This document shows positions 1 to 63,149 of a DNA stretch of 64,000 bases, in pieces. Numbering within the stretch: position 1 is the first letter of the stretch; every line of letters begins with the position of its first letter. The DNA comes from Deltaproteobacteria bacterium (GTDB taxonomy: Bacteria > Desulfobacterota > DSM-4660 > Desulfatiglandales > HGW-15): assembly GCA_019310525.1 (NCBI GenBank), contig JAFDEE010000012.1, forward strand, positions 62,001 through 126,000, in the 5' to 3' direction. The notes under the pieces are model-generated. The model did no database searches, had not been told where the DNA came from, and worked only from the letters and a program-made list of their open reading frames with translations. Position numbers and translations under genes: made by a program.

Positions 1-149
1 TGACTTGCCCTGAATCTTCCGTGTAATCTCACGGGACGAAATTCGGCTCGGGTCTCCTCTTTTGACCCGGGCGATCAATCTCCAGGATTGTTTTGAAAAA
101 CACCCGTTGGGCCATCTTGAACGATCCCGTTCAGAAGGAAAGATAAAGG

Positions 150-8452: not shown

Positions 8453-8601
8453 CTATCGGCTGAAGCCGATAGCTTTAGGGGTCAAGGGGCCAAGTGAAAT
8501 GCCCAGAGGCAGGCTTGGAAGGCTCAACCAACCACTTGAACCCTTGGATCCTTGGACCCTATTATTAAAACGATCAAACCAAAATCTTCGCCTGAAGGCG
8601 A
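8453..8601. repeat. two short TGAA-loop hairpins between slipin and the Rho-N gene
   Basis: CTATCGGCTGAAGCCGATAG (8453-8472) is a perfect 8-bp stem with a TGAA loop, and TCGCCTGAAGGCGA (8588-8601) is a smaller hairpin with the same loop. Between them lies a run of short related words (CTTGAACC, CTTGGATC, CTTGGACC). The first may weakly end transcription after slipin, but its T tail is only three bases. No gene is visible in 8423-8670. Confidence 0.45.
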
Positions 8602-13540: not shown

Positions 13541-13559
13541 CCTCTGCCGGAGGTAAGGC

Positions 13560-13691
13560 GAGACCTTTGAAAAACGCCCCCTTTTGCCCAATTGCGGCGT
13601 CAGGCTCAAATTTCAATCCTCAAAATACTAAATGTATTCCTGCGGTTGAAATTTTCGCCTTCCTTGAACTTGAGCATTTTTCAAAGGTCTC
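13560..13691. mobile_element. family-A miniature inverted-repeat element, copy A1 (132 bp)
   Basis: The ends are 18-bp inverted repeats with one mismatch (left GAGACCTTTGAAAAACGC, right GCATTTTTCAAAGGTCTC). It is flanked on both sides by AAGGC (13555-13559 and 13692-13696), as expected for a 5-bp target duplication. The reverse complement matches the element at 62564-62707 nearly base for base. It encodes no protein, so it must be moved in trans, if it still moves. Confidence 0.8.
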
Positions 13692-13723
13692 AAGGCTTTT
13701 TACGCACATCCGAGGAGATTTGA

Positions 13724-47090: not shown

Positions 47091-49056
47091 ACCTGTTCGC
47101 ACGGACATCAGTCTGTTGAGTGAAGAAGATCTTCACCTGTTCAATGAAGGCAACCATTTTCGTCTTTACGAGAAGCTGGGGGCCCACACTATGGGGCACG
47201 ACGGAGAGCAGGGGACCTATTTCGCCGTCTGGGCGCCGGATGCGGAGCAGATATTCGTCATCGGGGATTTCAATGGATGGGACAAAACGAGTCATCCCTT
47301 GCGCCCCAGGGGCCGATCGGGGATCTGGGAGGGTTTCATAGCTGGGGTAACCAAGGGGGATACTTACAAGTTCCACGTCCGGTCCCGCTATCATCTTTAC
47401 CGAGCGGACAAGGCCGATCCTTTTGCTTTTTACACCGAGGTGCCCCCGCGGACCGCCTCCCGGGTCTGGGACCTTGATTACCCTTGGAACGATCGGGAAT
47501 GGATGACTCATCGTGAAGAACGCATGCGACCTGAGGCTCCGATGGCAATCTACGAGGTCCACCTCGGATCCTGGGCAAGGGTTTCCGAAGAGGGGAACCG
47601 GTCCCTGACATACAGGGAGATGGCACCCAGGCTCGTTGAACATGTGAGGGAAATGGGGTTCACCCACGTGGAATTTCTCCCTGTCATGGAACACCCCTTT
47701 TATGGTTCCTGGGGATACCAGACCTTGGGCTATTTTGCACCCACCAGCCGTTACGGGACGCCCCAGGACTTCATGTTCCTTATCGATACCCTCCACCAGG
47801 AGGGCATCGGTGTCATCCTGGACTGGGTCCCGTCTCACTTTCCTACGGATGAGCACGGGCTCGGCTTCTTCGACGGCACCCATCTCTATGAACACGAGGA
47901 TCCCCGCAAGAGCATCCATCCGGAATGGAACAGCTTTATCTTCAACTACGGAAGAAACGAGGTCCGAAGCTTCCTGATCAGCAGCGCTCTTTTCTGGCTG
48001 GACAAGTACCATGTGGACGGGTTTCGTGTGGACGCCGTGGCCTCCATGCTCTACCTGGACTACGGGCGAAAGGATGGAGAATGGATCCCGAATCCTTACG
48101 GGGGAAGGGAAAACATCGACGCCATCGCCTTTTTGAAAAAACTTAACGAAGAAATCTACCGAAACTATCCCCAGGTGCAGACCATTGCCGAGGAATCCAC
48201 GGATTGGCCCATGGTATCCAGGCCGACTTACCTGGGTGGACTGGGATTCGGCATGAAATGGGACATGGGTTGGATGCACGACACGCTGCAATACATGTCA
48301 AAGGACCCCATCCACAGGGGCTACCACCATGACAAGCTGACCTTTAGAATGCTCTACGCCTTTCATGAAAACTTCGTGCTCCCGTTATCCCACGACGAGG
48401 TCGTATACGGAAAGGGCTCTCTCCTCAGGAAGATGCCCGGGGACGAATGGCAGAAATTCGCCAACCTGCGGCTCCTCTTCGGATACATGTACGCCCTGCC
48501 CGGGAAAAAGCTTCTATTCATGGGATTAGAGTTCGGCCAATGGAACGAATGGGACCACGAGACAAGCCTCCAGTGGCACCTGCTGGAATCTCCCCTCCAC
48601 CTCGGGATTTCACAATGGGTGCGGGACCTCAACTTCCTCTACCGGGAAGATCCCTCCCTCCACGAACTGGATTTTGATCCGGAGGGTTTCGAGTGGGTGG
48701 ACTGCACCGACTCCCATGCCTCTGTCGTAAGCCTGCTCCGTAAGGACCGATCCAACAAGAATCCTCTTCTCATCGTCTGCAACTTCACCCCGGTCCCCCG
48801 GATCGGTTACCGGATCGGAGTCCCGAACGGAGGGTTCTGGAGGGAAATCCTGAACAGTGACGCCAGGGAGTACGGTGGAAGCGGATTGGGGAACATGGGA
48901 GGGATGGAGGCTGAGCCTGTTCCGGCCCATGGCAGGGGGTTTTCCCTGAACCTGACACTCCCCCCATTAGGAGTGCTTTATTTCAAGGGGGTGGCGATTG
49001 CTCGGGGCCATGATAAAATGGATGAAACACCGACACTCGAACCCTCGACCCCTTGA
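47083..49056 (+). CDS. glgB: 1,4-alpha-glucan branching enzyme
   Basis: 657 residues from ATG 47083 with CGAGGAAA upstream. The N-terminal CBM48 module ([35 protein letters not shown]) leads into a GH13 barrel. The catalytic Asp is in [11 protein letters not shown], the Glu in IAEEST, and LPLSHDEV carries the transition-state His-Asp. Branching of alpha-glucan. The last dozen residues run into a CTCGAACC/CTTGAACC repeat, and probably are not functional. Confidence 0.95.
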
Positions 49057-49147
49057 ACCTTACAGGACCAAACCGAGAACCGGAGTCTTCTATCAGGTGA
49101 CGGGATTATTTGCTCTCTGAGGATAAACCGAAGAGGCGTTAAATCCG

Positions 49148-58058: not shown

Positions 58059-58231
58059 TAGTGCCCATCCATAAATGGCCCTTTTCCCCAATCTCTGCGC
58101 CTGCCTGTGCCGGACCTATCTGCCATTCCAAGGGGCAGGCAGGCACGGCAGACAGGTCAGGCTCAGATTTTAGTTAAAATCTTCGCCTTCCTTGACCTTG
58201 AACAAAATTGCCTATTTATGGATGGGCACTA
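58059..58231. repeat. element with family-A core but different ends, copy A4
   Basis: The ends TAGTGCCCATCCATAAAT (58059-58076) and their inverted copy (ending 58231) differ from those of A1/A2. The inner part shares TCAGGCTCA-ATTTTA and TCTTCGCCTTCCTTGA-CTTGAACA with family A. It also contains an imperfect GACCTATCTGCC...GGCAGACAGGTC hairpin. A short AACAGGCTGTTAACAGCTTGTTAA palindrome follows at once. Confidence 0.6.
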
Positions 58232-59459: not shown

Positions 59460-60479
59460 ATGAAAAGAAGAATTGCATTTTTAGTGGCAGGGGTTTTTTT
59501 GATCTCAATATTAAGCTTAACTTTGATACCGGGGTATGCTACCGCAAAAACCATCAAGCTCAGCTATGCACAGTTTGCACCTGCTAAAACCTTCGTAGGT
59601 GTCCAACTGGAGAGATGGAAAAAAGAAGTCGAAAAACGAACAAATGGCAAGGTAAAGGTAGATGCTTATCACGGAGGAACCTTGCTCGGCGCAAAAAACA
59701 TGATAGACGGCGTTATTGCGGGTACAGCGGATATCGGCTGTCTTTGCATGGCATACCAACCCGGCCGCTTCGTGATCACTAACGCCACCAGCCTGCCTCT
59801 CGGATTTCCAAACGCCCGTGTTGCAAGTCTGACTCTTTGGGACCTTTACAAAAAGTACAATCCAAAAGCATTTTCCAAAGTAAAAGTTCTTTCCATGTTC
59901 ACGTGCGGCCCTTCAAATATTATGTCCAAGATTCCCGTCCGAACCCTCGCTGATCTCAAGGGTCTCGCTTTGCGCGCATCCGGAGGTGCCGCAAAAATAC
60001 TGAAGGCATGGGGGGCGAATCAGGTCGGGATGCCCATGTCCACAGTGCCCGAGGCCCTTCAAAAGGGTGTGGTAAAAGGTCTGTTCTCCTCGCTTGAAGT
60101 CATGAAAGACTTCAGGTTTGCTGAAATTTGCAAATATGCGACCATCACCAATACGGTGATTTATCCCTTTGCTGTCGTCATGAACAAGGACAAGTGGAAT
60201 TCCCTGCCTGGAGACGTCAAAAAGGTCATGGAGTCCATGGCAAGGGAACATGCGGAGTGGACCGGCAGCTATATGGACGATCACATTGCGGAGGCCATTG
60301 AATGGTCTAAAAAAGAGCAGGGCGTCGAAATAATCCAGCTATCCAAAGCAGAAAAAGCCAAATGGGACAAACTCCTTGAACCTATCACAGCAGGCTGGAT
60401 TGAAGATGCAAAAAAGAAAGGGATTCCCGGGGACGCTATAGTGTCTGATATCAAGGCGTTCATGAAAAAATATCAATAA
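59460..60479 (+). CDS. TRAP transporter substrate-binding protein (DctP type)
   Basis: 339 residues. A Sec signal peptide (about 1-28, cut after ATA) precedes the DctP fold: LSYAQFAPAKTFVGVQLERWKKEVEKRTNGKVKVDAYHGGTLLG, and the carboxylate-binding Arg is probably in LKGLALRASGG. It delivers an organic acid to the following permease pair. Ligand unknown. A GGAGC site is near the ATG. Confidence 0.93.
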   Translation: MKRRIAFLVAGVFLISILSLTLIPGYATAKTIKLSYAQFAPAKTFVGVQLERWKKEVEKRTNGKVKVDAYHGGTLLGAKNMIDGVIAGTADIGCLCMAYQPGRFVITNATSLPLGFPNARVASLTLWDLYKKYNPKAFSKVKVLSMFTCGPSNIMSKIPVRTLADLKGLALRASGGAAKILKAWGANQVGMPMSTVPEALQKGVVKGLFSSLEVMKDFRFAEICKYATITNTVIYPFAVVMNKDKWNSLPGDVKKVMESMAREHAEWTGSYMDDHIAEAIEWSKKEQGVEIIQLSKAEKAKWDKLLEPITAGWIEDAKKKGIPGDAIVSDIKAFMKKYQ

Positions 60480-60616
60480 AGATACAAGAAATCTTTGATG
60501 GGTGGGGTTGTGGATTTCGCAAGATTAAAAAGAGATAAGGAATCCACAACCCGAATTCATCTTCAGGAGTGCTGAAGATCATAAAAAAGGTTGGGCATTG
60601 ACACTGGAGGCACAAC

Positions 60617-61105
60617 ATGGAAGCACTCAAAAAAGCAACCCATTTTCTGAACGTGGTCCTCGTCTGGATAGCGAGCTTTTTTCTGGGCGCAATGATTTTT
60701 TTAACGTGCGGCAATATTTTCCTGCGCGCGGTTTGGCTTCCCTTAAGGGGAACTTTTGAACTGATGGGATACTTCGGAGCGATAGTGACAGCTTTTGCAT
60801 TAGGTTATGCACAGATTGGACGTTCCCATATTGCTGTTGATATTTTGGTGCTTCGCTTCTCAAAGAAAACCCGCAAGATTCTGAACGGCGTTAATTACCT
60901 CATTTGCACTGTTTTCTTCTCTATAGTGGCATGGCAGATAGCCAAACATGCAACAACCTTATGGAAGACGGGGGAAGTAACGGAAACGCTCCGATTTGCT
61001 TATTATCCTTTTACATACGGTGTTTCACTTGGTTGCCTTGTTTTAGCATTGGTCATGTTTGTTGATTTTCTGCAATTGCTTATCGGCGATAAGGGGGAAA
61101 AATAG
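60617..61105 (+). CDS. TRAP transporter small permease (DctQ type)
   Basis: 162 residues with four membrane helices, the usual DctQ build. GGAGG precedes the ATG. It lies 137 bases behind the binding protein and directly abuts the large permease. Confidence 0.92.
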   Translation: MEALKKATHFLNVVLVWIASFFLGAMIFLTCGNIFLRAVWLPLRGTFELMGYFGAIVTAFALGYAQIGRSHIAVDILVLRFSKKTRKILNGVNYLICTVFFSIVAWQIAKHATTLWKTGEVTETLRFAYYPFTYGVSLGCLVLALVMFVDFLQLLIGDKGEK

Positions 61106-62410
61106 ATGGACCTTGCCGTAGTTGGAATCATTGGAATCATAATCCTTCTCCTTGTACTTTTTTTCCTGGGAATGCCAGTCGGTTTTGCCATGGCGGTTGT
61201 GGGGTTTTGCGGATTTGCCTATGTGATTTCATTTAAAGCCGCATTAAACATGGTAGCCATCGATATATGGGCGACATTCTCAAAATACGGCCTCACCGTG
61301 ATACCTCTTTTCATTCTAATGGGTTACCTGGCATTCAACTCCGGCATCGCAGAAAAACTATACAACACCGCCTACAAGTGGTTTGGACATTGGCGCGGGG
61401 GGCTGGCGATAGCGACTATCGGTGCTGATGAGCTTTTTGCTGCAATTTGCGGCTCCAATACAGCAACGGCAGCCACCATGGGTGCCATAGCCATACCGCA
61501 AATGAAGAAATACAATTATGATGCAAGGTTAAGCAGCGGCACCGTGGTTACCGGCGGCACGCTTGGTACGGTCATGCCACCCAGCGTGCTTCTTATTATT
61601 ATCGGGCTTCAAACAGAACAATCCATCATCAAACTTTTCCTGGCAGGAATATTGCCGGCGATTCTTCTTGGGATCCTCTTTGTATTGACAATCTCAGTTC
61701 TTTGTCGAATTTATCCTGATTTTGGACCTGCCGGGCCGAAAACAACCTTCAAGGAAAAGCTCAAATCCCTTGCAGGAGTTACGGAGGCCATAGCCATATT
61801 TGTGCTGGTGATAGGCGGTTTGTATGCGGGCATCTTCACTCCTACTGAAGCGGGAGCCGCCGGGGTTTTACTGACACTCATTGTCACCGCACCGGCAGGT
61901 AGGCTGAAGTGGAAAGGAATTGTTGATTCTGTGAGGGATACATTGAAAATTTCCTGTATGGCGTTTGTCCTCGTTACAGGGGCTTTGATTTTCGGTCGAT
62001 TTCTGGCTGTAACCAGACTCCCTTTTTTGGTAGCGGATTTCGCCGCCTCACTTCCCGTGTCGCGATACCTCATCCTGACGATTGTTTTGCTGATTTATTT
62101 GGTCGGCGGTTGTTTCATGGACGCCCTTGGTTTTCTGGTACTCACAATCCCTATATTTTTCCCGTTAGGAAAAGCCCTTGGTTTTAATCCAATATGGTAC
62201 TCGATTATTATCACTATGGTAACAACACTCGGAGCGATTACACCGCCTGTCGGCGTGAATATATATGTAGTGAAAGCACTGGCCCCGGAAATAGACATAG
62301 GCACTATTTTCAAGAGCGCATTTTTCTTCCTCCTGGCCTGTATTGTTTCTATCGCGATTTTAATCATATTTCCTCAAATTACTCTGTTTATACCGAATTT
62401 GGTCCATTAA
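61106..62410 (+). CDS. TRAP transporter large permease (DctM type)
   Basis: 434 residues with about twelve helices. Family marks are FLGMPVGFAMAVVGFCG near the start, PLFILMGYLAFNSGIAEKLYN, the CGSNTATAATMGAIAIPQM segment and TGGTLGTVMPPSVLLIIIG. It completes the transporter. Its start codon follows the dctQ stop directly. Confidence 0.94.
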   Translation: MDLAVVGIIGIIILLLVLFFLGMPVGFAMAVVGFCGFAYVISFKAALNMVAIDIWATFSKYGLTVIPLFILMGYLAFNSGIAEKLYNTAYKWFGHWRGGLAIATIGADELFAAICGSNTATAATMGAIAIPQMKKYNYDARLSSGTVVTGGTLGTVMPPSVLLIIIGLQTEQSIIKLFLAGILPAILLGILFVLTISVLCRIYPDFGPAGPKTTFKEKLKSLAGVTEAIAIFVLVIGGLYAGIFTPTEAGAAGVLLTLIVTAPAGRLKWKGIVDSVRDTLKISCMAFVLVTGALIFGRFLAVTRLPFLVADFAASLPVSRYLILTIVLLIYLVGGCFMDALGFLVLTIPIFFPLGKALGFNPIWYSIIITMVTTLGAITPPVGVNIYVVKALAPEIDIGTIFKSAFFFLLACIVSIAILIIFPQITLFIPNLVH

Positions 62411-62937
62411 CATTGATGAACTTTTTGGCTAGACAAACGGGCTGACGGCCTCGCCTGGCTTACAAGGGAAATTTTCCTTTACTCTTCCCTTAAGAAACGA
62501 GCTCGTATCTGCAAAAATACCGCCTGATTCTTCATGATCAAAAATGAGGCCCCCGCTTCAAGCGAGACCTTTGAAAAATGCTCAATTTTGGTCAAGTTCA
62601 AGGAAGGCGAAAATTTCAACCACAGGAATACATTTATAGTATTTTGAGGATTGAAATTTAAGCCTGACGCAGAAATTGGGCAAAAGGGGGCGTTTTTCAA
62701 AGGTCTCCAAGCAGCGGGGTGTCTTGTATGGAACTGCGACGGAGCCAACCCCCCTTCCCGCAAAAGGGTTGAGGCACGCTCACCCCGCCACTCCCCTATG
62801 TGCCAAGTTACAGAGTATCCTGAGAGAGGCGAACGGATACAATAGTTGTTTGCTCAACCATTAGCTGGCTCGATAAGTTACCAACCATCAAAAACTTAGC
62901 ATAACCTACTTAAAACAAAGGCTTTTATTCTTTTTTC
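62411..62937. other. gap behind the TRAP operon
   Basis: Contains an AAGGGAAATTTTCCTTT palindrome near 62463-62479, element A2 (62564-62707) and otherwise no gene that I can support. The frames crossing it are short and follow the repeat. Confidence 0.45.
62564..62707. mobile_element. family-A miniature inverted-repeat element, copy A2 (144 bp)
   Basis: The ends are GAGACCTTTGAAAAATGC and GCGTTTTTCAAAGGTCTC. It is flanked by CAAGC on both sides (62559-62563 and 62708-62712), a 5-bp target duplication. Its interior is almost identical to the reverse complement of A1; small insertions (AATTTTGG) explain the extra length. It lies between the two TRAP loci. Confidence 0.8.
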
Positions 62938-62966: not shown

Positions 62967-63149
62967 ACTAATTAGTTATCAATCGATGAGCCCTGGGAAA
63001 AAACCTACCTATCAACGTCACCCGATTTCTTCTTGAGCTTTATCATAAACCATTTTCATGGCTTTCGGGCTCAATACCCGAATCCAGCGTAACCAGCCTT
63101 GAATCCGTCAGGAATTTAATGAAATCTATTCATGAAGGGGGGTAAAGAC

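Follow-up and report, generated by a model that had tools for sequence, protein, structure and literature searches.

A2, a short repeat lying between two TRAP transporter loci, is a non-autonomous transposable element (MITE) in which the ends and the body have separate histories. The reading that best accounts for it, at a probability of roughly 0.85, is a modular MITE that combines a lasting hairpin body with ends suited to different transposases, the helper of A2 being of the IS5 type. MITEs are usually viewed as cut-down copies of one insertion sequence (IS), whose loss they are not expected to survive. Under the modular reading, an IS5-family DDE transposase supplied in trans would bind the 15-bp ends and move A2, leaving a 5-bp target duplication. 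The body of about 105 nt, with a structure and an inner-loop sequence that are conserved over much of the phylum, would pair with varying terminal repeats: type A ends would be served by IS5 enzymes, type D by IS1182 enzymes, and types B and C by enzymes leaving 6-bp and 4-bp duplications, respectively. The body, not any single IS, thus seems to be the lasting unit, while the ends may follow whichever transposases are present.

A2 lies 153 bp past dctM (61106-62410) of a dctP-dctQ-dctM set (59460-62410) and 424 bp ahead of the next dctP, which starts at 63132 in the 64,000-nt stretch of DNA that was analysed (the window). This second TRAP operon is assigned from translations only, its dctQ and dctM falling outside the window. 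The original prediction had described a 144-bp element with CAAGC on both sides, the same ends as a copy named A1, and TRAP loci to the left and right; the duplication was found at both flanks, comparison of the two copies gave identical ends, and dct genes stand on either side. The perfect 15-bp terminal inverted repeats are part of longer arms, 36 nt each and 81% complementary. As a single strand, the 144 nt have a folding energy of -66 kcal/mol (z = -11). A2 has no transposase gene, and the sole open reading frame (ORF) over it (94 codons, 62479-62763, minus strand) has both its ends outside the element. There is no canonical terminator inside A2, a scan of Rfam 15 gave no match at the gathering threshold, and a search of a plasmid collection gave none either. 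The 15-mer end had no match in a literature search, and the type-B end brought up only papers unrelated by title.

Features of A2 and related elements (coordinates refer to the window; inserts are placed on the 144-bp frame)
Feature	Position	Strand	Description
MITE copy A2	62564..62707	+	type-A ends, 144 bp, one full-length hairpin fold
Left target-site duplication	62559..62563	.	CAAGC
Right target-site duplication	62708..62712	.	CAAGC
Left terminal inverted repeat	62564..62578	+	GAGACCTTTGAAAAA; matches IS5-family element ends of related genomes
Right terminal inverted repeat	62693..62707	-	perfect complement of left repeat
Conserved hairpin body (model R1)	62583..62688	+	common to elements with other ends
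Inner stem and loop	62618..62652	+	AACC(A/G)CAGGAATA..TATTT(C/T)GAGGATT; most conserved part of body
Copy A1	13560..13691	-	132 bp; duplication AAGGC at 13555-13559 and 13692-13696
Type-B element	58061..58229	-	related body and cassette c104 (58100-58156); ends GTGCCCATCCATAAATG
Insert	after base 38		32 nt
Insert	after base 58		24-25 nt
Insert	after base 86-92		about 130 nt or more
Insert	after base 93		48 nt
Insert	after base 104		58 nt
Insert	after base 109		31-54 nt

The source genome, a 3.78-Mb draft in 158 contigs, contains the 15-mer end 221 times (230 times with position 11 left free), as against 0 occurrences of the reversed control; together with the hairpin z-score, this places the A2 family far beyond chance. 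Exact 5-bp duplications flank 32 of 61 paired elements in this genome, and 6-bp duplications another 8 of the 61; the extra base is as expected from a chance extension. Of the 89 type-A elements classified over all genomes, 51 are flanked by an exact 5-bp duplication and a further 4 by one of 6 bp. At C4:43893-44114, a copy flanked by the duplication AGAGT is nested in a second copy. When its flanks are joined with one duplicate, a recognisable host copy is restored, that is, an empty site. The earlier proposal that A2 is a MITE that arrived by transposition is thereby supported, and the absence of duplications from further young copies, which would have spoken against it, was not what was found. 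A1 has the opposite orientation to A2 and is 88.9% identical to it; cassette-free type-A bodies in the source genome have a mean identity of 91%. L001-L005 and A1, 96-97% identical to A2, form with it a tighter subgroup that is probably younger. Copies are scarce inside long ORFs: of the 25 that have enough flank, 5 lie within ORFs of at least 200 codons, where random placement in these loci would put 16.6. A lone type-A end fragment at 1608-1646 of the window (87% over 39 nt) is probably a decayed copy. In several contigs of G000 (C3, C7, C18, C10, C14, C19, C33), the distance between the contig end, at the first bases, and a MITE end is about 70-120 bp. The assembly of the source genome is probably limited by these repeats, which may also hide a helper IS.

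The body was characterised separately from the ends. In an alignment of 47 bodies without their ends (types A and B, four genomes), the bodies form a 30-pair hairpin in which 98.3% of cells are paired; double-change cells number 123, against 34 +- 4 in shuffles and at most 26 in slid controls. Such covariation in a DNA palindrome may stem from hairpin-templated repair, and is no proof of RNA function. A covariance model of the body alone, for which E-values are rough, matched 51 of 85 genomes and 33 of 47 genera of the order, as well as 51 of 247 genomes sampled over the phylum, in many further families. The inner loop is near-invariant across the phylum, and copy number ranges from dozens to hundreds, differing between close relatives.

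Four types of ends were classified on this body. Type A is found on 89 elements with 5-bp duplications; type B, GTG(C/T)CCATCCATAAATG, on 46 elements with 6-bp duplications; type C, GAGGCAGTTTCAAAATG, on 14 elements, 9 of which have a 4-bp duplication; and type D, GAGGCTGTCTGAGAATG, on 13 elements at CTAG-like targets. The modal total length is 142 bp in each type, the covariance matches read in detail being the best-scoring ones, a choice that favours cassette-free bodies near this length. Type-B copies were first seen among loci carrying cassettes; the one in the window has slightly different flanks and no exact duplication. Further end types occur across the phylum, among them GTGCCTGAACGAAAACT with 6-bp duplications (L403, L414) and GGGTGTCTTGAAAAAT (L411, L413). 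Type D ends match those of an IS1182 element in the genome G060 (L116; ends GAGGCTGTCCGAGAA / GAGCTTGTCCGACAA, flanked by CTAG left and right; 398 bits with NF033551). Taken with the IS5-like ends and duplications of type A, described below, this implies at least two IS families. Another IS1182-type element (L143:1128-3040) has identical ends, GAGACTGTCGAAAAA, which come close to the MITE end types without being one of them. Type-A ends also occur on an unrelated body, the CATTGCGAGGAGCG repeat, in G026 and G036 (L050, L051, L053, L322-L326), some with 5-bp duplications.

ISNme1 of Neisseria, with the end GAGACCTTTGCAAAA, is linked to the ATR MITE of Neisseria meningitidis, which has ends like its own (PMC4596501); this pointed to IS5-family ends for A2. 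The related genome G026, which also has MITE ends, contains a complete IS of 1491 bp (L114) with ends GAGACCTTTGAATAA and GAGACCTTTGCATAA and the 5-bp duplication TGAAG. Its transposase of 353 aa scores 179 bits with NF033581 (IS5_4, cut-off 140) and contains DUF772 and DDE_Tnp_1. Further members of the IS5_4 clade have GAGACCTTTG ends. In most relatives of L114, a GAGACCTTTGCACAAC-like end is paired with GAGACCTTTGAATTT at the opposite side, and a few, for example L183 of Desulfosarcina cetonica, carry the 15-mer exactly as A2 does. Autonomous elements with ends matching A2 include L114, L126, L157, L183 and others. Exact 5-bp duplications flank seven of the listed IS end pairs (L154, L157, L162, L164, L177, L178, L187), a listing from which unrelated chance pairs (e.g., L166, L198) were set aside by eye, and 5 bp is the duplication length of IS5_4-clade elements and type-A MITEs alike. 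Since complete IS elements of related genomes share both the ends and the 5-bp duplications, the likely mobiliser of A2, judged from sequence, is an IS5-family transposase.

Searches of the source assembly, a draft whose contig ends often fall in MITE repeats, gave no IS5_4-type transposase; collapse and loss of the helper would look the same there. With PF05598, no transposase came up in the source genome, and PF01609 gave nothing but genes of the IS4 type or remnants, which lack GAGACC ends. Read side by side, the ends of A2 and the IS have just the terminal 16 bp or so in common, so A2 is no simple deletion product of an IS5 element. A pair of ends 1239 bp apart in G060 (L034:528-1766) was also rejected as an IS: it has no duplication, and encloses alpha/beta-hydrolase-like fragments, so called by reading of the translation. 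It is perhaps a captured gene between two type-A ends.

The longer copies (170-432 bp) consist of the 144-bp frame and inserts at fixed positions in various combinations. Most of these palindromic, optional inserts can be folded as hairpins. The 58-nt cassette has the same junction and the same body in all 30 loci read, while the long insert also occurs dispersed, as a repeat of its own, usually flanked by TTAA/TAAA. Pieces of a separate dispersed repeat of about 180 nt (CTACTATCGGCTGAAGCCG...GGGACATTAA) lie at 8453-8594 and 49034-49061 of the window and at L237-L266; this repeat often has TTAA/TAAA flanks, has more than 100 candidate sites in the genome and is sometimes nested in MITEs.

A conventional explanation would be an ordinary single-family IS5-type MITE, with bodies that look alike through convergence, or through noise in aligning A/T-rich hairpins. 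MITEs that have ends of the IS5 type are indeed well known (PMC4596501), and the body model was built from types A and B jointly. However, type-A and type-B bodies in the source genome are on average 88% identical over an inner part of about 100 nt (maximum 95%), both types share cassettes at the same sites, and matches near E 1e-28 carry type C and D ends, which lie outside the model. The end types turned up by this end-free model largely refute the explanation, which we consider very improbable. Still harder to sustain is a REP/REPIN moved by a RAYT transposase: the high copy number of small, palindromic, intergenic repeats would fit, but the 15-bp inverted ends, the type-specific duplications and the matches to ends of IS elements with DDE transposases leave it next to no room. 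To our knowledge, REPINs have neither defined inverted ends nor type-specific duplications. A role of the body as a functional structured RNA, or as some other hairpin of use to the host, with transposition a secondary route of spread, is unlikely, but deserves more weight than either. Strong covariation, the near-invariant loop and the intergenic bias all suit such a role. Against it, the dozens or hundreds of copies vary between close relatives, the intact duplications and the nested copy point to selfish spread, the covariation could also arise by hairpin-templated repair, and the Rfam and terminator searches of A2 were negative.

How the ends changed is a separate question. They could have been replaced wholesale rather than stepwise: an element would insert at another's tip, and the new end would be copied to the far side through the hairpin. 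Nested insertions do exist (the AGAGT copy, and a type-A element within a type-B remnant, L048), and the hairpin shape permits copying of ends, yet the modal length is constant over all four types and the ends are alike in register above shuffled sequences (A-C 10/15, p 0.003; C-D 11/15, p 0.0003; A-B 9/15, p 0.006). Stepwise retuning is favoured because of this likeness and the constant length, and wholesale replacement is a minority possibility, if a less remote one than the functional RNA. Relatedness among the IS ends themselves could be an alternative source of the in-register likeness. No convincing mixed-end intermediate was seen among the classified elements; the candidates listed are either matches by chance or, in L348, a type C that has diverged. 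The tree built from 117 bodies has few columns and weak support, and needs 8 end-type changes, where the minimum is 3; its well-supported branches are compatible with a single origin of each end type. Type-B bodies of the source genome group with its type-A bodies, not with most of the type-B bodies of G060. Given the few columns and the weak support, the tree does no more than suggest repeated switching of end type. Within the modular reading, we lean, with some reserve, towards a body of about 105 nt that is a long-lived parasite of the phylum, keeping its fold, inner loop and 142-bp length, while its 15-bp ends would have been repeatedly retuned and helpers of different families switched and outlived.

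BOX elements of pneumococcus are, like this family, modular small repeats with optional internal units, and differ from it in sequence; we know of no end switching in them. ATR and BrickBuilt (Porphyromonas gingivalis) resemble A2 in their GAGACCTTTG ends, their small size, their non-coding and intergenic nature and an inferred IS5-family mobiliser. In contrast to the present family, the available part of the source reports no body in common with other end types, about 19 copies rather than more than 100, and, for BrickBuilt, variable or unclear duplications in place of clear 5-bp ones (PMC4596501). The TIMEs and TIME-COMP mosaics of Pseudomonas are likewise non-autonomous, mosaic and without a transposase gene, with 5-6-bp duplications, but there the Tn3-like ends stay and the cores vary, whereas here it is mostly the core that stays (PMC4133298). 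The nearest precedent found is the coral CMITEs, in which, as here, conservation between families is higher in the internal region than in the terminal repeats; these are eukaryotic, however, with a single duplication type (TTAA) and piggyBac-type ends throughout, while the present family is bacterial, and has four types of duplication and two or more IS families (PMC2872659). No report of a body with interchangeable ends among bacterial mobile repeats was found in the literature searched, which included few subscription journals.

In practice, assemblies of this bacterial group appear to be broken by these repeats. If the modular reading is true, a body with ends of several transposase families, all differing in the length of the duplication they leave, would show that a non-autonomous element is able to change helpers, and the evolution of ends towards a transposase, as well as the role of the conserved hairpin, would become testable.
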